Position numbers and translations under genes: made by a program. The notes beneath the pieces were generated by a model that made no database searches, was not told where the DNA came from, and saw only the letters and a program-made list of their open reading frames with translations. A stretch of DNA of 64,000 nucleotides from Pisaster brevispinus (lineage: Eukaryota > Echinodermata > Asteroidea > Forcipulatida > Asteriidae), in contig JAMKCF010000001.1 in assembly GCA_023634235.1 (NCBI GenBank), forward strand, positions 17,060,258 through 17,124,257. Reading direction: 5' to 3'. Below are positions 6,007 to 62,200 of this stretch, piece by piece; the stretch's first letter is position 1, and the number at the start of each line of letters is the position of its first letter.

Positions 6007-9000
6007 TCAATAACCGTAGGGAACAGTGTCAAAATTTTCAATTTGTAACCTTTTCGTGTACACAACTTGGTAATTCTTTTTTTTCTTCTTTGGTCTTTAT
6101 TGCCATATCTTTTTTATTTCTGCAGATTTCATAAGGATCAGTCACTTGTACTTTTTCCGGACCCTCTTTATGAACCATTCTAAACATTGTGTCAAAATTA
6201 ACAATGACCTCGTTGCGATAATTTAATGTGATGCCTCGTACTTAACATATTGTTGAGTATCCATTTCTATCCGGTTTGGCTAATTTGTATGCGTAGTTCT
6301 TTGGCCCACCGGAAACAAACTCAACGATGTGATTATCCGAATCAATTTCATTCGTCAACTCCCCTAAAAAATCCCCAGTTTCTGGTTCCCATTCATCGTT
6401 CGACTGACATAAATCACACTATCTGTGTCGTAATACAACACTCGACTGCCTAGACCTTCTAATAGTTCATATAGTTTAAGCCGGGCGTGAGCTGTCGTGT
6501 ATGCTGCAATAATGACGTTTGTACGGCCTGATGGTTCAACGAATTCTTCGGAGTTTTGCCAGTGGACTTCTACTATCTCATCGTTGATGAAGTTGATGCT
6601 ATTGACGTCGACGTTATCACTGGTCATCATGTCGAAAAATTCCACAGGATCCGTCACGTGTGTTGTCTTAGCCATGTTTGTCCTCTGCCCAAATTTCCCC
6701 CAAAAACTGTTTAGCATTAGTTTGGCCAGCGCTCTCAACCCTGGGTTCCTCTTAATGTTGTCCCAATCAAGACGAATCCCTTCCTTCTCATAGTACTGTT
6801 CGATGTATCGATTTTTATCTTCATCTGTTTGGCACCATTGAGGCCAATCGCTTGCTTCTTGTTTCACCTTCAGGAAGGCATTGACGTAGGAAGCGAACAG
6901 ACCACCTGCCTTCGTGTCTGGGTCATACACCGACACATCGTCGAAATGCCAGACTTCGTAAATCTTTAGTAGAATGTAACCCATCGAGAGGGCTTTCTGC
7001 AACTCCATGGTGACCCAGGTACCAGTCAAAGCACGTTCTTCATCAGTATGTAAACACGGGGACAGTTGTTGGGATTCGCTGCATGTTGAACACAATGGAA
7101 ACATTAGGCGACTTGATGCAAGTAGCCATGCAAGTATGCCCATGATGCAGACAGCCATGAAACTCCAAGACAGTTCCGACTCCATCCTCGACGTAGAAGC
7201 CATCTGCCTTGTACTTGCCGATGACCATCTCCCCATTATTAGCAGCGTGTTGGATGTGTTGACCGGTTTGATGAGACATCCATTTCAGCCATTTTAGAGC
7301 TTTGATGGATTGTCTGTCATTGGATCGATAACCCTGTGGTGGAATGATACCTATGGTGGTGGGTTCGAGGTATTTAGTCCTGTACACCAGGTTACACGCT
7401 GAAGCTATGGTGATGCAGTGTTCAAAGGGATCAATGCCGGGTGTGTTGTCATCAGCCGTCATCTCCATAAAGAGAGATCTGAACCGTAGACAGCAACGAC
7501 GGAGAATATCCACATCTGACTGGCAGTATTTCAGGATCTCCTCCTTCAAGTCAAATGAATCTTGCTGATGTTCAGTGTACCATTCGATAAACTTTTGTCT
7601 GTCAACCGATTTCATGCTATCAGGGTTGTAACATTTAATATCCGGCAAATGGGGAAGTACTTTATCTTGGTTGGCCCTTGTATTGAACAAATGCGGGAAA
7701 TAACCTTTGGCCAGCTCAGTCAGGCCAAACGCACCGGGAAGCTTGGACAAGACCATGGGTAAAATATTCATGGAATCGATAAATTTCATGTCATTTGCGG
7801 CAACATCAATACTCATGACTTTAGCACCATTCAGGATGACCTGGGGTAAGATGGCGTTATCATACAGATATCTGAGAATAAAGTTTGAGTCGTATCCTCT
7901 GAAATTATGACAGATTACTATTGACCCTGCATTGTTCTCCCTAAACAGCCATTCGCAGAATTCTTTAGTGGTGTTCGGACCGTAGCAAGTGCGTTGTCGT
8001 TCACCGCATCTCTGACAAGCTTTGCCATCTTCATGATCTAGACACTCACTACATACTTTGTGTGCAATACACAGATTTGGTTCGTGGACTCCCGTTTCCT
8101 GCATACACTCAAAGTCGAAGAAGATGTATGAGGGTGATGCGTCATCTTCTTTTGTCTGTACATCTTTATCGAGAGTGTCTTCCATTGACTGGACTTTACT
8201 GTGCAAGTTGTCCGGTATCGGCAGACTGGTGGCAGGTTGCATGTAACAAAGATGGTCCTGGGTACGTATTCTTTACAAGTGGCGCAATACTTTTCACCGC
8301 AAACATGTTCTTTTCCTCGGTGACGTCTTCTGCTAACAAACTGACTGCAAATCTGACATCTGTAATGCGTTTTGCATACCGACTTGCCCGGACTGGTTTC
8401 TTTTTGATGATTTTTAAAGCACGAAAAGCTTTTGAAAGACCTGTTGCAGTCGCTGCAGTATACCCAGTCCTCCTCAATGCAGTTGGCCTGAAAGCACAGC
8501 TTGCATGAATTCTCACAACGATGATCTTCTTTGTGATCGTAGCCTTTAAAACAGTTTGGGCAAAAGTAACTTCGGTTCAGGAAAGAGGGCATACTGGTGA
8601 TGTCATAATGCCCGTGATGAAAATAAACTGAAATTCGTTTGTCCGCTGGTGGGCCTTTGTATATGATGGCGTTGAAGTGCTCCTTAGAAACAACCAGTAT
8701 CTGGTAACCAGTCAACACGTTTTGAAATTGCTTTATTTCATCAATACCGCAAACAGTTAAAGGTATCCCAGCCTGCCTATGAAGATCTTCTGCAAGTATT
8801 CGCTGTAGACTGCATCCATGACGTATGGCTTCCCATTTCTCGTGGTCATCGACGTTTGCTTTGCCTGTTACAATGGCTCTAGCGCAGCACAGGTCGTCTT
8901 TGTTTTTGATTTGTATGATACACTTTTTCTCCTTGAGAAAACGCTCAATGTTAACGTACCGTTTCTTCTTGATTTTACCACCTAAGGGCATACAGACGTG

Positions 9001-9582
9001 GGTCATGTGTATTTCCAGACTACTGTCTATGGAAAATTCCTCATACGACTGCAGGACTTGCTCAACTCTAGCCAAGAAACGTTCAGCTGTCAGTTTATTC
9101 TTAGGAATGAATGGAAGTTGAATGGGATAGTCCAGTTCAGCACATGTGACTATTATGCGGATGAGATCTTGGTGTTCAGCGCCGGTTGTTAACGTGTCGA
9201 AAAGACTATCAAACACCCTGTGTAGGGTATCTAGGATAGCCGTTGGGTCTTGGACGTCTAAGTTCTCATTGAATGTAACCTTATAAGTCGTCCCTTTGGT
9301 TTTAAACTTCTTCACAAGCACTTCATGCACCTTGTCGACGTGGTACAGATCGGTGACGTCATTGATCTTCTGTCGTTTTCAGGGATTACCATCACCGAGA
9401 CCAACTTGAGGAACATCCTTCTGATGCTGACTGCGCTGGTGTCTGATGTAATTATCAAGACGGGCAAACACCTTTCCACATACATCACATTGGTGTTGGT
9501 TAGTGTTGCTATGACGGGCTCGATGACGGACGTAGTTACTACGCTTGAAGAATGTTTTACGGCAAATCTCGCAGGAAAACAT
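6007..9582 (-). pseudogene. Polinton family-B DNA polymerase (broken)
   Basis: Reading from 9582: two C2H2 fingers (CEIC...HRARH, CDVC...HQRSQH), an in-frame TGA at 9379-9381, then a Polinton-type N-terminal region (DDLCCARAIVTGKA, cysteine-rich segment around 8350-8560), then the proofreading exonuclease with FFDFE (ExoI), HNFRGYDSNF (ExoII) and YCQSDVDIL (ExoIII). The palm keeps KLMLNSFWGKFGQ (motif B) and YYDTDS (motif C), and the C terminus ends at about 6007. Frames change near 8262, near 7115, at about 6370 and in an A-rich run near 6080. At about 7115 the exonuclease side runs straight into the region after palm motif A, so the motif-A aspartate segment is missing. The gene is inactive. 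The family copies element DNA by protein priming. Confidence 0.88.
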
Positions 9583-23901: not shown

Positions 23902-24354
23902 TTATACTTTCGGAACGTAAACTGTGGGGTATTCACCCTGAAAGATGTTAGATCTGAGACGCATGTGCTCCTCGGTGTCCGGTTTCAAATCCACAAAGAA
24001 ATGAGAGTAGAGGGAACTCGTCACGTTGCGATAGGTCTCGACCAAGTGCGTAATCTGTGAAGCATTTCTGGGGTTTTTAAAGAGCACCATATAATGCGCG
24101 CTCAGACAGATTGTGCGCATTTCTTTACCCCAATAAAACAGATTCTGCAGTATGAGTATAACCGACAGATTGTTGTGGTGACTGCCCTTGGTGAAAAGTT
24201 TGGTAATCTTCTCATTATTACCCGATTCCGACATGAGGTCGTCGATCACAACCAGGTTTCTCTTTGTTCGGTCCAAGGAGGAGAGAAGGTCGTCGGGATA
24301 TCCCTCCACAAAACGAATGTCGTTGACGGTGTTAGACAACCTGTCATAAGCATC
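23902..24354 (-). pseudogene. DNA-packaging ATPase (FtsK/HerA-type), C-terminal part
   Basis: Shows NLVVIDDLMSE (Walker B), then LFTKGSHHNNLSVILILQNLFYWGK and HYMVLFKNPRNASQI, characteristic of the genome-packaging ATPase of Maverick/adintovirus-like elements. The Walker A half is missing: just upstream, at about 24350, the sequence passes directly into the polymerase exonuclease region. A deletion therefore removed the rest of PolB and the start of the ATPase. The surviving frame of about 145 codons has no internal stop. Confidence 0.85.
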
Positions 24355-47675: not shown

Positions 47676-49224
47676 TGTTCAACCCAACAAAAAGACACCA
47701 TGCCATACATATCTGAAACAAAAATGATAAAGATTAGTAAATTTGTCAAAACTTATAATCAATACAGTCAAAGCAGGAAACAGTCTAATGGAAGCCAGTC
47801 ATCTTGCCTCTAGCAAGCTCGCCCCCAACAAAGTCACCCCAAATAATTTTGCTCAAACAAGCTCACCTTGGGTATTAAAAGTCTCATCCCTTACACAGTC
47901 TCCCCCTTGGAAGCCTGCCGAACACCCTAATTATTTCTGAAAACTTTAACTTTATACCAAGTTTCCAGGATAAATGTCATGAGCTTTCCAGATTGTTCAT
48001 TACAAAAAGCTTGCTAGGGGCATTTTTTTGTGTGTGTGTGTGTGGGGGGGGGGGGGGGAATTGTTACAGGGTGAGCTTGTTTGGATGGGGAACCATGGAG
48101 GGGGAACTTTCGTTTGGGGCGACATTCTTGGGGGGCTAGGGGGTGAGATGACCAGCATTCCTGCTAATTTTATTCTGTTTCACATTAAAGCAAGTCTCAT
48201 GTGATCAAAACAAAACTGATAATTTGTGTCTTAAACATTGAGGTTTTCATCAAAATGCCTTGTTATTACATGTACAGTCGACTCCCGTTAATACGAGGTC
48301 CGCCGGACTGGCCCATTTTCCTCGTATTATCCGAACCTCGTCTTAAACGCAGCGCGCTAAATATAGACCATGCCGTCATAGTGCGTGCACATCACACGTG
48401 TATGCACTTGTATGCTCGTACAGTACACGTGCAGTGCTTTACAGATTACATGTACATATTACATGTATTGTGCTAGCCTACCACGGAATGGTTTGCTTCC
48501 CAGAACAGATATAACGAGCATCCTGTACTCAAGAATATCAATAATAAATGCATTTTATTGACTGATTAATCATATAAATTTAATTTTTTGTACAATTCAT
48601 GATAACAAAATAGCAAAGAGGTGTCAAACTTGCCGTTCATGTGACAGATTCGGTACCCTGCGTAGCGCATGGCACGCTAGGCTGATCTAATCGTTCGTTT
48701 TCGTTGGTAACCGCCATAGTGTGTACGATAAGTAGCATTTCAAGCGTAGGATACCAGCGACATTTTTCTGGCGTTACGTTGCGCAAGGACGAAGTGTTTG
48801 TAACCAAATATTAAGCAGGCGACCGTTTTTAAAATGTTCATCCTCTTCTCAAGTTTTCTGATTGTATACATGTAAAAGAACTTGTTTTGGGGGTTCTTCT
48901 TTGCAGTTTTCCTTAATATTGTTTTAATAAAGAATGCATGAGTGTCAGCTAATATTTTGAAGATTATTTATCAAAACTATTTTGGAAATGTGGGTATGGT
49001 TTAAATTTATCTTTTTAAATGATTGAATTAAAGAAACATTGCTTCTTAGGGAAGAAGGGAAACCTTTCTTTTATGATATAAGATCTATCTTTTGATTCAA
49101 ATAAATAAAATTTTGTATTAGATATTCGGAAAGGGCAACCTTTGTTTTCTCTTTCTTTTTTCTTTTTAATACATTTTCGGGACGGGGGGAACCTTTATTA
49201 ACAGGACAAGACATCGCATGTAAG

Positions 49225-49237
49225 TAATCTCTTTTGT
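49225..49237 (-). promoter_or_regulatory. histone downstream element-like sequence (Tigger)
   Basis: Minus-strand ACAAAAGAGATTA, about 20 bases past the stem-loop. Purine-rich AAAGAGA sequences at this spacing are the U7 snRNP pairing site in histone genes. Confidence 0.6.
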
Positions 49238-49257
49238 AATTGTGGTGGCTGTGAGGT

Positions 49258-49273
49258 GGCTCTGAAAAGAGCC
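49258..49273 (-). promoter_or_regulatory. histone-type 3' stem-loop after Tigger transposase
   Basis: Minus-strand GGCTCTTTTCAGAGCC is a perfect match to the replication-dependent histone mRNA stem-loop (6-bp stem, TTTC loop). The flanks also fit: CCAAC before, ACC after. It starts 20 bases after the transposase stop. It would bind SLBP and give a non-polyadenylated, S-phase-limited mRNA. An AATAAA on the same strand about 60 bases further (49194-49199) could be an alternative end. Confidence 0.85.
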
Positions 49274-49293
49274 GGTTGGATTAATATTTTCTT

Positions 49294-50886
49294 CTACTTC
49301 TGGAAGAAATCGGTGATCTTTCGCTGGGACTTGACTCTCTCCAGCTTCTGGGCAAGGAAGGCACTCAGCACAGCCTGGGCAGCAAAGACTTCGCTGCTGG
49401 TGTCTTTTACGATGTACAAAAGATCCTGAAGTTTTGGCATGATGTCATGTGCCTGTTGATGGGATAATGATGGCTGTTGGGCACCATCCTCCTCCTCTTC
49501 CTCCTCCATCTCCTCTTCCTCATCTTCACCATTCATCGCCACTGCCACTTGTTCTGCAATCTCCCTCTCCGTTGGCTCATCGGTGCACTGTAGGTCGGTG
49601 TCTGCATTGGCGTAATCTTGGAAAGAGATGGCGGGTAGATCCAGGTGCCTGGCCATACGCTCCCAGATGTTGTCAGGTTGACTTTCGACCTCGTCATCTT
49701 CACCGGCGTCATCGCTTCCGATTTCCCCATCGTCGTCGTCTCCCTTGTCTTCCACGAACCCCGCTTTGGCGAAACACTTCTCAATAGACACCGGTTTGAC
49801 ATTTTTCCAGGCCTCAAAAAGTATGGAAATTGCCTGCTTCACGTCGATGGGCTTGGGAATCTCGCCAGAATCGTAGCTATGGAGAAGAGTTTGGACGAGA
49901 TGTTTGCGGTAATGAACCTTCATGTTCATGATGACTCCTTGGTCCATCGGCTGAAGATGAGATGTTGTGTTCGGAGGAAGGAATTGGAGAGTGATGGCCT
50001 GAAGGTTGGGTACTTTGGGATGAGCTGCACAGTTGTCCACGAACAGAAGAACCTTGCGACGCTGGCGGGAAAACTTTCGGTCCAAACGCCGTACCCATTC
50101 GTTGAAAAGATCCGAAACCATCCAGGCTTTTCTGTTGGCTTGATAGGTCACTGGGAGAGAACGGACATTCTTGAAGCACCGTGGATTCTGGAATTTCCCG
50201 ATGACAAGTGGCTTCAATTTCTCGGACCCATCCATGTTGGAACATAGCATGACAGTCATCCGTTCCTTACTCTGTTTGCCACCATGACACTGTTCACCAC
50301 CATGACACTGTTCACCTTTAAAGGCCAGCGTCTTGTCGGGGGTGAGGCGGTAAAACAGACCAGTTTCGTCGGCGTTGAAAATATCCTTGGCTTCGTAGCC
50401 GCGGATGATGCCAGGAAGGGTTTCTTTCAACCAGTGCGTGAGGGATGTCGGATCAACACTAGCACTTTCGCCGCAGATCTGCTTGTGTAGAATGCCATTT
50501 CGCTCTTTAAATCGGGAAAACCAACCAGAGCTTGCTTGGAAGTTCTCGTGTCCCAACATCTCGGCCAACTGCTGGGCTTTTTCGCGAAGGAGAGGTCCAT
50601 TCACAGGAAGATTTTTGGCTCGCATGCTTTAAAACCAACGCAGAAGTGCTTCCTCAACATCCTCGAGCAAAGCAGTGCGGCATTTTTTTCTTGACGGTTG
50701 GTACTTCGAAGACTCAAATCTAGACTGGATATCGACCCGATTCTTTAAAATGGTTGAAAGCGTGCTGGAGACGATGCTGTACTGGCGACCGACCTCTGCT
50801 TTCTTTGCCCCCACATCCACAGCTCGGATGATCTCCATCTTGGTCTCGAGGGTAAGGCACTTACGTTTGATTTTGATGCTAGCCAT
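49294..50886 (-). pseudogene. Tigger/pogo transposase, one premature stop
   Basis: ATG at 50886. N-terminal CENP-B-like helix-turn-helix (KRKCLTLETKMEIIRAVDVG), in-frame TAA at 50632-50634, then the second CENP-B-type domain (FQASSGWFSRFKERNGI). The DDD catalytic core is intact: NADETGLFYR, LLFVDNCAAHP, QPMDQGVI. The C-terminal part is strongly acidic and ends QRKITDFFQK, a textbook PCNA-binding PIP-box; a PIP-box is established for pogo transposase. Apart from the one stop the 530-codon frame is open, so a recent insertion is likely. A five-codon duplication (GEQCHGGEQCHGG) lies at about 50275-50305. Confidence 0.93.
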
Positions 50887-51634
50887 TTTCTTTCTCGAGT
50901 ATGGCAGTTACAATTACGATGAACGTATGAGAGGTGGTCCCAAAATGTACCCCTTTTTATAATCATTTGATGCGGCAAATTGTTGGAAGTGCAGGTCATT
51001 CAGGAGTGGGTTTAAAAAAATCTTTGTTTGGCGCTATTTTAAGTTGAAAAAGGCTCTACCAAAATGCCCCTAGAACAGCGGTTACGTTTTTGAAGTTTTG
51101 ACATGGAGGATACGAGCAAGGATTAGGAGTCAATAAACTCAAAAATTCTGCCGAGCACTATCGCCGACATAAATTTTAAATAAGCGGAATCTGTTGGAAA
51201 TTGAGAAGGACTGTAACTGACTAACTTTTTTGTGTTTTTGAGCCACGCACGTGACTTAAGCCCTCTATTGTCTGTTTGGGTAAACCCAGTCCGTTGAATA
51301 GACTGGTGGCACTATTGGCATGTCATCGCACAATTATCACCTCTATTAATACATTGTACCAGGCTTTGAGTGAGGGCTTCATGTCATTTCACAACTTTGA
51401 CGAAGGTAAGCTTTTCTTGTACAGTTATTCCAGGTCTCGCTATAAATGTCTGAAAAACAATACATTTTGTCTTCAAGGGGCCGCAAAATTACCTCGTATT
51501 AACCGTGTTCTCGTTACGACCGTGCTCGTTTTTTTAGACGTAGAAACACGCATGGGACAGTTCGGGACTGGTAAATAACCTCGTATTAACCGGCGTCTCG
51601 TATCTTCCGAGCTCGTATTAACGGGAGTCGACTG

Positions 51635-52257
51635 TAGTTTTTATTGTAACTTGATCTATCTACAAAGTTAGACATATTTAACCTGAGTGTATAAACCTTT
51701 GCAAAATGCAACACATTTGTTCATGTTCAAAGTACTTAATCCCCAAGGGGAGTGTTTATCACTTGTAGTAATCCTTCCCCTGACAGCGCTGAAATAAATA
51801 CCTTGAGAGTCTGTACCCTTTCAGGCACCTGTGGTGCAACAGGATGTCAATAAACAGTGCTTAATGCATTGTAAACCTGGAGAGAGGAATTACATGGTTG
51901 AAAGCACAGACAAGAAAGCCTGTACATTGCAATTGCACATACAAGAGTGGAGCTCTTTCTATTGCTCCATGATGGTACAAAGCTTTTTGCTATTGTGAAT
52001 GACAAATAATCTGCACTGATATTACATGGTGAGGCGGGGTGGGCAGCCTCCCCCACTTTGTAGTAAAACAAAGTTTGTCAGTGGGGTGTTTCAAAATAAT
52101 GTGAAATTTCAAGTAAAGCCCTTGTAACAGGCATCCACAGACTAACTGTGCCCATCTAGCTGTATGTTTTATGCATTTTTTCCTTCTTGTGCATTGTTTA
52201 GGTTGTGCGCACTTCAAAAATTCATCTCAGAATGGAGTTTCTCAAAATATCCCCAGA
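51635..52257. other. stretch without recognisable gene
   Basis: No recognised gene or repeat. Confidence 0.4.
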
Positions 52258-58205: not shown

Positions 58206-58369
58206 CAGCGGTAGGTAACATTTGAAATGATTTTAAAATGTTTCTTTTCACTGATTTTTTTAGAAACTGGTTTTTATAAAATTGATTAAAAATATGTGTA
58301 TTTTTTATAAGTAATGCACTTTATTAAGAAGAATTAAACTTTATTAACTTTCTTGACAAGTCACAGATT

Positions 58370-58383
58370 ATTATCTCTTTGTG
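58370..58383 (-). promoter_or_regulatory. histone downstream element-like sequence (MULE-like)
   Basis: Minus-strand CACAAAGAGATAAT about 12 bases past the stem-loop, sharing AAAGAGAT with 49225-49237. AATAAA signals follow at about 58322-58345. Confidence 0.55.
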
Positions 58384-58394
58384 AATATGTGTGT

Positions 58395-58410
58395 GGCTCT
58401 GAGAAGAGCC
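58395..58410 (-). promoter_or_regulatory. histone-type 3' stem-loop after MULE-like transposase
   Basis: Minus-strand GGCTCTTCTCAGAGCC: 6-bp perfect stem, TCTC loop keeping U1 and U3 of the histone UUUC loop, flanks AAAAC and ACAC. It begins 48 bases after the stop codon. Upstream and downstream context matches the stem-loop at 49258-49273 in an unrelated transposon. Confidence 0.75.
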
Positions 58411-58458: not shown

Positions 58459-59242
58459 TCAGATGGCAGGACTATTGAGATGACTGCATGCTGACAGGAG
58501 GGCTGAAGTTGTTAGGTGGCCTGACTCATACTGATCCCAAAGTGCAAACACCCGCCCTTGGAGCCTCTGATATCTCTGTCTCTGGTGTCGCCGCAGCTTA
58601 GACTCCTTCACCAGCCTGATCTGGAGGGTGACGAGTGACGACTCCCGATGCAAAAGTTGGATCAACTTGTAGAAATGTACTCCATGGTTTCCTGCCTTCT
58701 GGTTAATGCGGTGATGCCAGCCTTCGACGTCGTTGTTGGTCCTGATGCTCCTCATGAAGGCTGACCATGATGCAGGATCCCACTGCTTGCTGGCCAGCCA
58801 GGTGCGCTCGATGTACTCCCAAAGCTGAACCAGTGCTGGTGCCTTGGCCTTGTCTTGAATGTTCTGGAACGCTTGAGGAATGTGCTCTGCGGACAGGAAT
58901 GGTAGAGCCATGAGCTTCTTGATGAAAGCATGTAATGTAGCGTTGGACTTAACGGGTACCACCAGACCCAGGGCTTGGCACTGGCGCCAAACCGCTTGAG
59001 TCCAGTGGAAGAGGCACCCCTTCACAGATGCATGAGGAAAAACTCGGCGCACAGCTGACCAAACCGCCTTCTCGAAGTCAACTACCACCTCTGCCAGGTT
59101 CTGAACCCCGGATGGCAGCCGCCGCTTGAATGTCTTGAGTATCTGCATGTAGTCCTTCTTGGTCCGACTTCCCATAAAGCAGTATGCTAATGGCACCTGC
59201 TTCTGTTCACCGGAGTCACCCTTGGCAAAGGCATGGATGGCT
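58459..59242 (-). CDS. MULE-like transposase, last exon
   Basis: Reads AIHAFAKGDSGEQKQ, PLAYCFMGSRTKKDYMQILK, AEVVVDFEKAVWSAVRRVFP, KGCLFHWTQAVWRQCQALGL and RTNNDVEGWHHRINQKAG. These are hallmarks of the MULE transposase core: the second acidic residue in VVDFE, the CxxH in GCLFHW, and a late NNDVEGWH. The open frame of about 260 codons is uninterrupted and starts near 59242 after a pyrimidine tract and AAAG, suggesting an upstream exon that I could not find. No terminal inverted repeats recognised. It could be an active transposase gene or a domesticated one. Confidence 0.8.
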
Positions 59243-62200
59243 TTAAAAGGGGGGGAATAAATAAATTACAAATTAATAATAATATTTTTAAAAACATGGT
59301 CTTCAACCAAATTATACTTTGTTACGGAGGTTGGGTTCAGGACTTCTTCGACCAAAAATCAATATTTTTTGAATAAAGAAGAAAGATAAAGAAATCCTTC
59401 TCAGAAAAAAAGTACATATTCTTAACCGGTAGCCATCAGTGGTGAAAACGTGATTTCGAAATTAGCGCCCGCCTCCCCTTGATCGGTGCATGAAATACTT
59501 TCAGAGATTAAAAATAAATAGTTTATGATTCCGTTTGTTTTGTAAAGTAAATCTCGTATTCTTTTGAGTCATAAGTGCCTTTTGAATAATGCAAGGGGGG
59601 TTCCTATAAAAGAAAAACAACAAACAAGCAAAATGGATGTAAGCCTCTATATACTTTGTGTTTTTTTAAAGTAAAATGTATTTTGGGATCTGCTCGTATA
59701 TAGAGGACCTCACATACGGAGGGGCGGGGGGGGGGTAAAACAGTTTAAGATTTCAGGACCAAAAGTTATCATTTTTTTGTGAAGACAATACTTGCTTTTT
59801 GGTTGTTTTTAAAATATTATTATAGCCACTTATCAGAGCCTTTTACATGAATGTTGAACAAGTGATTGCCTAAACAAACAGACCACTTTCTCTGTTCTAC
59901 AAAGATTGTATCGATGACATCCAAGACCAAAAATGTAGATCTTCGGTCAAAAACTTTGGATTTATTATGTCAGCGCTCATTAAACAGGAGAGTTTCTCAG
60001 TTTGGCCGGCCGACCACCGTGACGACTCACTGATCGGTTAGCTATTGTATATCCCACCTATGATGCGGCACCCCCGGCCATACCAGTTGTTTTCCTACCC
60101 CAAATCAAACTTTTTTTTTTTTTCCGACGTGAAGGGCGGGGGGCGGTGAGGGGGCCACAGTTAACGACAGATTTTATGAAATTTACCACAAATCTTTTGC
60201 ACACGACTTCCAACTTAGAGATTTCTTCCTACATGATCCAATGGATGGATATCCACGAACTTATATTGTTTTTTCACAATTACATTTTTGGCAAAACTTA
60301 TGGATTTAATCTTGTATTTAATTTAAAAAGTAAACGAAAGAGGGCGCGTTTTTCCTGTGACCCTTGTTATCGATTACGTACGAATGAATAAACTTACGTC
60401 TAGGAATAAGATATCAGAGAGCAGACGACGTTGCGATGATAAAAAAAGAGTCTTAGTACGGATAGCTCAATCGTGGAGGAAAAATATTTCAATGAACCAT
60501 ATCAGGACCTGGGCACAGTGTGCCACCTACCATTGCTCGGAACTTTTTAAAGCTACACCCAATCACTTTCTGACTTTTCTAAAACAAATGTGTCATAATT
60601 GTTTGTTGACTTCACTTTGACATTGGACAATTCAGACGTAGTTCAAAGTCATCATTCATCCAATATGAAGACAAGAGTTTTGAAAGCAGCCTGGCATTTT
60701 GCTTTTTTAAGAACAAAACGCAAGCAAAGGAGTTTTCATAAAAAGGAATGACGGACCCAGTTTTACCGAATCCTGCCTTGTCACTGGGCCAATTGGCCGA
60801 CCGTACGACCGGCCACTCACTACGCCCAATATATCACCTGTGCCGGCCAGCCCCGGACTCAGCGTGCAATTTTCTTACAAATTGTTGCATTAATTTGACT
60901 CATAACTTTGGTTTGATTTTACCAATATTGTTGCAAATTTCAGAAGTGTTTTACATGAAATAGTTTTTTTTTTTTAAGAAAAAAAAAAATCGGGGATAGT
61001 GGTAGCCTGTGATTTTTAAACAGGACTCGAGTATACAGCGCTTTCACTTGTTTTAATTTACTCGCTAATTTTATTTTTTTACGTGATGATTTCTGTCCAG
61101 CCATCTGTTTTGTTCGACGCAAGTGCAAGTCAGTCTATCGATGATGATGATGTCAACTTGGCTGTTTTGAGTTTGAACTGTTTTGAATTCTATTTCAATG
61201 GACTCTTTTTGTGTAATAGACTCCAGGCTTTTACAGATGCTTTTTAATAGATGTTAGATTGGCATCCGGGCAACAGATACTCTTAACTTGTATGATGTTA
61301 GTTCTTTGTTTCCCTTTCATTTCCCATAACTTTGGTACAAGCCGCTGAGCTCACAACACTTCGCAACAACATGGCAACAACAATCGCCGTTCTTAAAATC
61401 TCCTTCGTCTTATTAGGTCACGTAACAGTTTCCCATCCAGCCTTCTTTGGTTTATGGCCCTTGTGGCTTCTTTGTTTGCCAGGTGTTAATTGTTAGTGGA
61501 TTTTAAGGGCTAGACCTGTGTGCTCCATGCTTATGGTCCATGCTTATTTTCTTTAATTTGAATATTTGTATTGATCGTTGATCATTATTTAACTGTATGT
61601 TTGAAAGTATGAATGGAAATAAAACAAACAAACAAATAAACGCTAAAAAATAAATCCAGCTTCCCGCTTTTGTTGCGGGAGGGCCACTTGTGTGGAAGCT
61701 TTTGCTTGAGCAGAAGCGCCCATTGTGAAAGGTAATGATGCCAAGAAACTATCATGACCCAATAAATCAACATAATCATAGTTTTCTTGTTAAACGCTAA
61801 GACCCAAACTCGGCCATCTCCGACTCAAATGCTCACTTCTGTCCCCATTCACTGATTTTTCCCCGTCATTATCTTCCTCAAATTCAGGGGCAGATCCAGG
61901 AATTTTTACAGGGGGAAAGTCTTTCAGAATGTTTTTCATCCCCCCTGAAAAAGACCCTTGTAAAATGTTTTTTCTCTATGGCATCGGAGCGGGGGGGGGG
62001 ATCCTCCGGATCCATGCCTGGTTTAGCCTACGGTTAATTTTGATATTACTTGCAGTTGTGGACCCAGGAACTTTGCGGGCGGGGTGGGGGATCAGGCCTT
62101 CAGATGCGCATTGGCCACTCTTTGCACACTCGCTCACCATACACAAATAATAACCCCCGAAGAACGTCATCTTAAAAAACAAAAAAATTAACTGATTATT

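Follow-up and report, generated by a model that had tools for sequence, protein, structure and literature searches.

Histone-type 3' ends on mobile-element genes of the starfish Pisaster brevispinus and their possible processing by the SLBP/U7 pathway

INTRODUCTION

Why would a transposase gene end like a histone gene? Polyadenylated ends are what one would normally expect for the genes of pogo/Tigger and Tc1/mariner elements, and a 4-nt loop of the UUUC/UYUN type characterizes the histone stem-loop. Histone mRNAs are described as the only animal protein-coding mRNAs in which a stem-loop replaces the poly(A) tail (PMC6303110), and SLBP and the U7 snRNP are reported to need the stem-loop and the histone downstream element (HDE) of histone pre-mRNA. 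Among the matches listed by a literature search that covered few subscription papers, the excerpts returned mention no transposons with histone-type 3' ends. The question was raised by a 64,000-nt stretch of the P. brevispinus genome (the window), in which a sequence-only reading had noticed such an end downstream of a pogo/Tigger transposase gene.

RESULTS

The Tigger element of the window

The element is a pogo/Tigger DNA transposon (48275..51634, minus strand) bounded by 28-nt arms that include the flanking TA; these terminal inverted repeats (TIRs; 48273-48300 and 51609-51636, TA-CAGTCGACTCCCGTTAATACGAGG) are 96% complementary, and their outer two bases point to a TA duplication. Along with the TIRs and the TA, the classification is supported by the CENP-B_N, HTH_Tnp_Tc5, and DDE_1 domains of its transposase reading frame (49294..50886, minus strand), which carries one in-frame stop in its N-terminal region, a defect missing from the sequence-only reading, and which ends with a TAG at 49296-49294. 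The perfect histone stem-loop that this reading had placed 20 nt past the stop is indeed found there, at 49273-49258 of the minus strand (GGCTCTTTTCAGAGCC), with a 6-bp stem and a 4-nt loop flanked by CCAACC and ACC. It scores 33.9 bits against Rfam family RF00032 (E 5.2e-6 when the window is searched against all families), which misses the Rfam gathering score of 34 by 0.1 bits.

The purine-rich, U7-target-like stretch reported downstream of the stem, the HDE of this gene, was also recovered (AAAAGAGAT, 49235-49227, minus strand), at an offset from the stem of 22 nt versus 12 to 13 nt in 13 histone 3' ends of the genome. Because a sister copy, L087 (C11:17184321), lacks about 11 of the bases between stem and HDE and has an offset of 11, the longer spacing of the window copy probably reflects damage; the sister hairpin scores 39.6 bits, above the gathering score of 34. 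An AATAAA, a possible back-up polyadenylation signal, does follow the gene on the minus strand, at 49193 to 49198, one base away from the position first given (49194-49199). Almost 1 kb separates the hairpin from the nearer TIR (that of the element's 3' end); since the TIR arms enclose it, it lies within the element and is no remnant of a flanking histone gene.

A second histone-type 3' end in the window

The window contains a further case that the sequence-only reading had missed. An open frame assigned to a MULE transposase by its PF10551 domain (58459..59265, minus strand), probably a last exon, ends with a TGA at 58461-58459, and a stem-loop, GGCTCTTCTCAGAGCC, starts 48 nt past this stop (58395..58410, minus strand) and scores 41.7 bits against RF00032, in excess of the gathering score of 34. 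It is followed on the same strand by an HDE (AAAGAGAT, 58373..58380) and by an AATAAA (58340..58345) with a second copy at 58325-58320. Among named relatives of the MULE protein, the best comes from Asterias amurensis (84%), followed by one from Patiria miniata.

The Tigger and MULE stem-loops are the only RF00032 matches within the 64 kb, the gypsy-like, LINE-like, and Polinton-like genes of the window having none. A stem-loop pattern allowing up to 2 mismatches gave 2 matches, both exact, versus 0.39 expected, and a count of at least 2 was reached in 6 of 100 shuffles. The stretches 6364-9378 and 23902-24354 (both minus strand) contain Polinton-like DNA polymerase B frames (DNA_pol_B_2 at 6364-7284) and a weak Pox_A32-like match under the cut-off (E 0.06), with no histone stem-loop. 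Viral contigs yielded nothing when scanned with the Tigger protein, the MULE protein, and a single hairpin pattern, and phages searched with the Tigger protein gave no match.

Genome-wide distribution of the hairpin

All of our counts refer to one genome of 549.7 Mb in 512 contigs. The genome-wide RF00032 search that the sequence-only reading had called for returned at least 75 scored matches from 115,802 first-look candidates, which were assigned to histone genes (24), to mobile-element open reading frames (ORFs; 24), and to a short noncoding repeat (26), with 1, L025, unclassified. The histone matches comprise 12 separate sites and a further 12 within the C15 array; of the array matches, 5 were read, and the other 7 were assigned by identical score and spacing. 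The 24 that follow mobile-element ORFs belong to MULE (7) and ORFX (9) genes, part of these being broken copies placed by DNA similarity, to Tc1 (4), to Tigger (1), to the L005/L088 family (2), which matches nothing in Pfam and counts as mobile solely for its dispersed near-identical copies, and to a LINE (1), a case that rests on one locus, L007, with RVT_1 in one frame. Upstream ORFs were sought solely on the strand of the hairpin, so that their orientation is not a result of this survey.

The exact pattern GGCTCTTYTCAGAGCCAC occurs at 822 places genome-wide, and its reversed form at 0. Among the approximately 100 places listed, 33 with GGCTCTTTTCAGAGCCAC fall outside both the 75 matches and the window, and 20 of them were read (19 dispersed and 1 from an 11-place array). 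Four follow histone genes (H4, H3, and two H1), and three lie near element-like ORFs: L136, which belongs to the L005 family, and L134 and L145, which we tentatively regard as pogo-like, the L134 fragment matching DDE_1 at E 0.005, below the cut-off and not as its top match. About 9 resemble old copies of the noncoding repeat (with BLAST support at the hairpin in 4), and 4 are unclassified; L150 resembles L025. Histone genes are the only host genes that we recognized in the 75 matches and the 20 places read; another might be hidden among the unclassified sites or in the unnamed families.

The short noncoding repeat is dispersed and consists of GAAGACGGTCAGAGCACACTGATCGAAACGTCGAGCAG followed by the hairpin and an HDE (L008, L014, L016, L024, L026-L030, L069, and others). 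Some copies form inverted pairs with the hairpins pointing outward (L030, L069, and a decayed one, L029), and further close pairs occur among the GGCTCTTYTCAGAGCCAC places listed.

Gene ends chosen by protein homology

Copies of the Tc1 transposase were chosen without reference to the hairpin, through a homology search that gave 23 matches. Within the clade at 55 to 100% identity, all 10 copies read to the gene end, four of which (L071 and L079-L081) were already known from the RF00032 search, have a stem-loop and an HDE-like stretch; the remaining clade matches stop short of the gene end and are outside this count. Seven stems are fully paired (L071, L079, L080, L081, L109, L112, and, with one G-U, L111) and three are damaged, by one mismatch in L108 and by small insertions in L110 and L117. 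For one of the remaining matches, C1:14760960, GGTCCTTTTCAGGACCAC occurs 112 nt beyond the match end. Three Tc1 copies keep the module intact at 98.2 to 99.6% DNA identity over at least 2.1 kb, one of them with a further 651 nt at 93.1%. The module is present in none of four copies of a distant Tc1 family (L113-L116; 30% identity, 371-aa frames), a fifth distant match being outside this count. The L106 family of Tc1 matches DDE_3 and HTH_32 over the cut-off and HTH_Tnp_Tc3_2 under it, in stretches that stop before the element ends.

These counts bear on the simplest explanation, that the combination arose by chance or that a histone gene neighborhood was misread as a transposon feature. Histone arrays do exist elsewhere in the genome (C14, C15), and yet tblastn with the genome's own H2A, H2B, H3, H4, and H1 proteins found no match in the window at E 1. 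Chance is set aside by the 822 exact places against 0 for the reversed pattern and by the 10 of 10 Tc1-clade gene ends. We consider the probability of either version to be close to nil.

A protein search with ORFX gave 56 matches, from which 14 further gene ends were read: a hairpin or a damaged form of it is present in all 14 and an HDE-like stretch in 13. Nine have the hairpin GGCTCT-TTC-AGAGCC, with a 3-nt loop, together with an HDE; L130 has the same hairpin and no HDE, L123 and L126 have one stem mismatch (with an altered HDE in L126), and L131 and L132 have damaged hairpins. A 6-bp stem with a 4-nt loop of the UUUC/UYUN type is found across the elements, with this one ORFX clade as the exception. 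The 3-nt-loop clade (L120-L122, L124, L125, L127-L130, and L133) is otherwise normal in flank and HDE, and its hairpin is a candidate for an unusual SLBP target. ORFX has no Pfam match over the cut-off. At one locus, L105, it adjoins opposite-strand frames with DNA_pol_B_2 (E 1.6e-14 and 2.1e-21); its association with Polintons comes from this locus, where polymerase frames alone were seen beside it.

The Tigger protein gave 8 matches, none of them an intact full-length second copy, and the gene ends read were those of the window copy and of a tandem duplicate, L032 and L033, in which the stem is decayed at the matching place and the HDE intact. With L087, a gene remnant found through its hairpin (by RF00032) that has an intact hairpin and the flanks of the window copy, the stem-loop is intact in 2 of 4 Tigger gene ends and decayed in 2.

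The MULE results are mixed. From 37 protein matches at 30 loci, 19 reach the last ten residues and 18 were read; a hairpin lies within 300 nt downstream in 7 and is missing in 10, and the remaining one, L054, enters a long minisatellite at its C-terminal end, with a hairpin, L009, 3.5 kb further on (C18:12.594-12.599 Mb). Seven of the 10 hairpin-less matches are only 30 to 48% identical to the query; the closer relatives without a hairpin are L051 (73%), L045 (54%, rearranged), and L066 (47%). In a MULE family represented by L040 and L044, a second, 15-nt hairpin, GGTCCTTTCAGGACC, lies just upstream of the main one. Together, the Tc1 and ORFX copies and, less uniformly, the MULE copies support the view that the histone-type 3' end is a feature that the element genes have kept, and with it the interpretation of the sequence-only reading.

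The hairpin might instead act as DNA, for instance by binding the transposase or forming a cruciform, and this would suit its perfect palindromic arms and the inverted, outward-pointing pairs formed by some copies of the noncoding repeat. We nevertheless regard such a role as very improbable, given that the Tigger hairpin is nearly 1 kb away from the nearer TIR, that loop, flank, and HDE are kept together and in the sense orientation in each protein-selected copy with a hairpin, and that they are common to different transposases and to the LINE locus.

Paired changes and conservation of the core

We aligned 11 sequences from Tc1, MULE, and Tigger, excluding L110, L117, L032, and L033 for their insertions or deletions; one row, L020, came from RF00032, although the protein search recovered its gene as well, as locus L063. 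In this alignment, 98.3% of cells pair, two pairs are changed on both sides, and the fraction of pairing falls to 3 to 62% when the partner is slid. Covariation is 0.285 versus a shuffled mean of 0.151, and the observed value was reached in 1 of 500 shuffles, which overstate independence as the copies are related. Two of the five measures are no better than chance in these 11 sequences, namely, the number of pairs with changes on both sides, which 158 of 500 shuffles matched or exceeded, and that of further pair types (437 of 500). When the alignment is widened to 18 sequences by including those found through RF00032, a set biased toward the canonical stem, 100% of cells pair and covariation is 0.157 versus 0.080, with 0 of 500 shuffles reaching it.

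Variant patterns were also counted. The form GGYCCTTYTCAGGRCCAC, in which pair 4 is C-G, occurs at 55 places genome-wide (reversed control, 0), and in 54 of them pair 3, left free in the pattern, is able to pair too: it is C-G in 25, U-A in 25, U-G in 4 (one tandem array), and mismatched in 1. The one-sided C/A form, GGYCCTTYTCAGARCCAC, occurs at 12 places (reversed control, 0). Among 14 of the 55 places that were read, 7 are MULE-derived, 6 either belong to another ORF family, whose ends are TKRKRD-like, or have the 3' end of that family, and 1 is unclassified; being related, these copies do not count as independent. L163-L165 and L167 represent a further dispersed ORF family for which no name was found, with a stop 11 to 25 nt before GGTCCTTYTCAGGACC.

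In 16 of 16 copy pairs, identity is higher over a 43-nt core (0.44 to 0.95) than over the 62 nt that follow it (0.26 to 0.49, with 0.82 in one close pair). Identity over the next 62 nt, the part that the shuffled control covered, is within 0.10 of the shuffled mean in 12 of the 16 pairs, and all six MULE pairs are somewhat above it. The stem and the HDE persist across Tc1, MULE, and ORFX copies with approximately 50 to 65% protein identity.

Resemblance to the histone 3' ends of the host

The element ends have the same flank as the host histone 3' ends, and their HDEs resemble those of the host histone genes. The HDE starts 12 to 13 nt from the stem in 13 of 13 histone ends and 10 to 15 nt from it in 15 of 16 element ends. 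The distance from stop to stem is 24 to 37 nt in 11 histone genes and 14 to 52 nt in the element genes measured (Tc1, 14 to 20; Tigger, 20; ORFX, 21; MULE, 26 to 52; L005/L088, 29; and LINE, 36 nt). A search of the genome for U7 snRNA gave no RF00066 match, with 65 of 132,739 candidates scored; CAAAAAAGAGAT is a putative U7 pairing stretch. Past the HDE, a loose TGTC-like pattern, counted with no chance control, occurs in 11 of the 13 histone ends and in 13 of the 16 element ends (for example, L001, L006, L097-L099, L020, L079, and L121) and is possibly a third element of the signal.

An AATAAA or ATTAAA lies within 140 nt past the stem in 14 of 16 element ends, in 13 of these at 49 to 67 nt. 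The stem-loop might then be a mere SLBP site, serving export, storage, or translation of maternal mRNA, with the 3' end formed at the AATAAA and little or no U7 cleavage, and the copies of the noncoding repeat, which run on beyond the expected cleavage site, are compatible with this. The polyadenylation signals do not discriminate, however, as one is also found near 10 of 13 histone ends, and the HDE, whose role is in U7 cleavage rather than in SLBP binding, has retained a spacing like that of histone genes. We therefore give this explanation a small, though real, chance of being correct.

Some of the resemblance extends to shared sequence. From the stem through the spacer to the HDE, the MULE family of L020 does not differ from the host H1 gene L003; ORFX shares 88 to 97 nt at 78 to 81% with Tc1 and MULE around the module (L010, L018, L022, L075, and L079-L081); and the H2A gene L006 and the Tc1 copy L071 have 70 nt in common at 84%. 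The 3' ends may therefore have originated in histone genes, by capture, or have moved from one element to another, and because different families share 70 to 97 nt around the module, the idea that they are functionless products of such recombination gains a little. Many of the element copies are also broken. Such exchange or capture bears on origin more than on function, and against a functionless end stand the persistence of stem and HDE at approximately 50 to 65% protein identity while the sequence downstream is near the shuffled level in 12 of 16 pairs, the paired changes in the stem, and the three Tc1 copies with an intact module at 98.2 to 99.6% DNA identity. Loss of function after capture thus appears improbable to us.

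DISCUSSION

A complete module, composed of the stem-loop, an ACCA-like flank, and a U7-target-like HDE 10 to 15 nt further on, is found in pogo/Tigger, Tc1, and MULE elements, in a gene beside Polinton-like polymerase frames, at one LINE locus, and in two unnamed ORF families. It is positioned past the stop codon, persists and shows paired changes in diverged copies, and matches the signals of the host histone genes. From this, we infer that the SLBP/U7 pathway processes the mRNAs of these elements, or did so until recently, an explanation that we consider likely.

Our working model is as follows. The host SLBP and U7 snRNP would recognize the element transcript, and CPSF73 would cleave it just past the stem-loop, yielding an mRNA without a poly(A) tail. 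Such an mRNA would accumulate and be translated alongside histone mRNAs, in S phase, in oocytes, and in cleaving embryos, so that the transposase would be present during DNA replication, when cut-and-paste elements can gain copies. The downstream AATAAA or ATTAAA could act as a back-up, which leaves room for polyadenylated ends. The S-phase timing of element expression, and a benefit from it, are more speculative parts of this model than the processing itself.

In a broader form, our proposal is that at least five kinds of element, including the virus-like Polinton, depend on host histone 3' processing, with an expression tied to replication and the early embryo that has been kept through long divergence, even with a three-base loop. 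We lean toward this view with modest confidence. Since pogo and Tc1 are both members of a single broad superfamily, these two do not represent fully independent kinds.

If transposon genes do make use of this ending, the SLBP/U7 pathway is not confined to histones, and transposition has a simple route to S phase and the early embryo. Transposase mRNAs of this kind would be overlooked by poly(A)-selected RNA-seq. The element 3' ends would also make up a naturally diverged collection of candidate substrates for SLBP and U7.

How do these ends compare with known systems? The window element has the CENP-B_N, Tc5-type HTH, and DDE_1 domains, the TIRs, and the TA of pogo/Tigger elements, and the Tc1 copies have the DDE_3 domain of Tc1/mariner; they differ from these in the histone-type module past the stop, which the distant Tc1 family L113-L116 lacks. 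The MULE genes share the PF10551 transposase domain with other MULE elements and have named relatives in starfish, molluscs, a nemertean, and a coral; the module is found on part of the MULEs of this genome (7 of 18 gene ends). With Polinton/Maverick elements, ORFX has in common the DNA_pol_B_2 frames on the opposite strand at L105, and it is distinguished from them by a product without a Pfam match over the cut-off and by its histone-type 3' end. Compared with the replication-dependent histone 3' end represented by RF00032, the stem, the type of loop, the ACCA-like flank, the HDE, the spacing, and the distance from the stop are the same, and the difference is in the genes that the module follows, which here are those of mobile elements.
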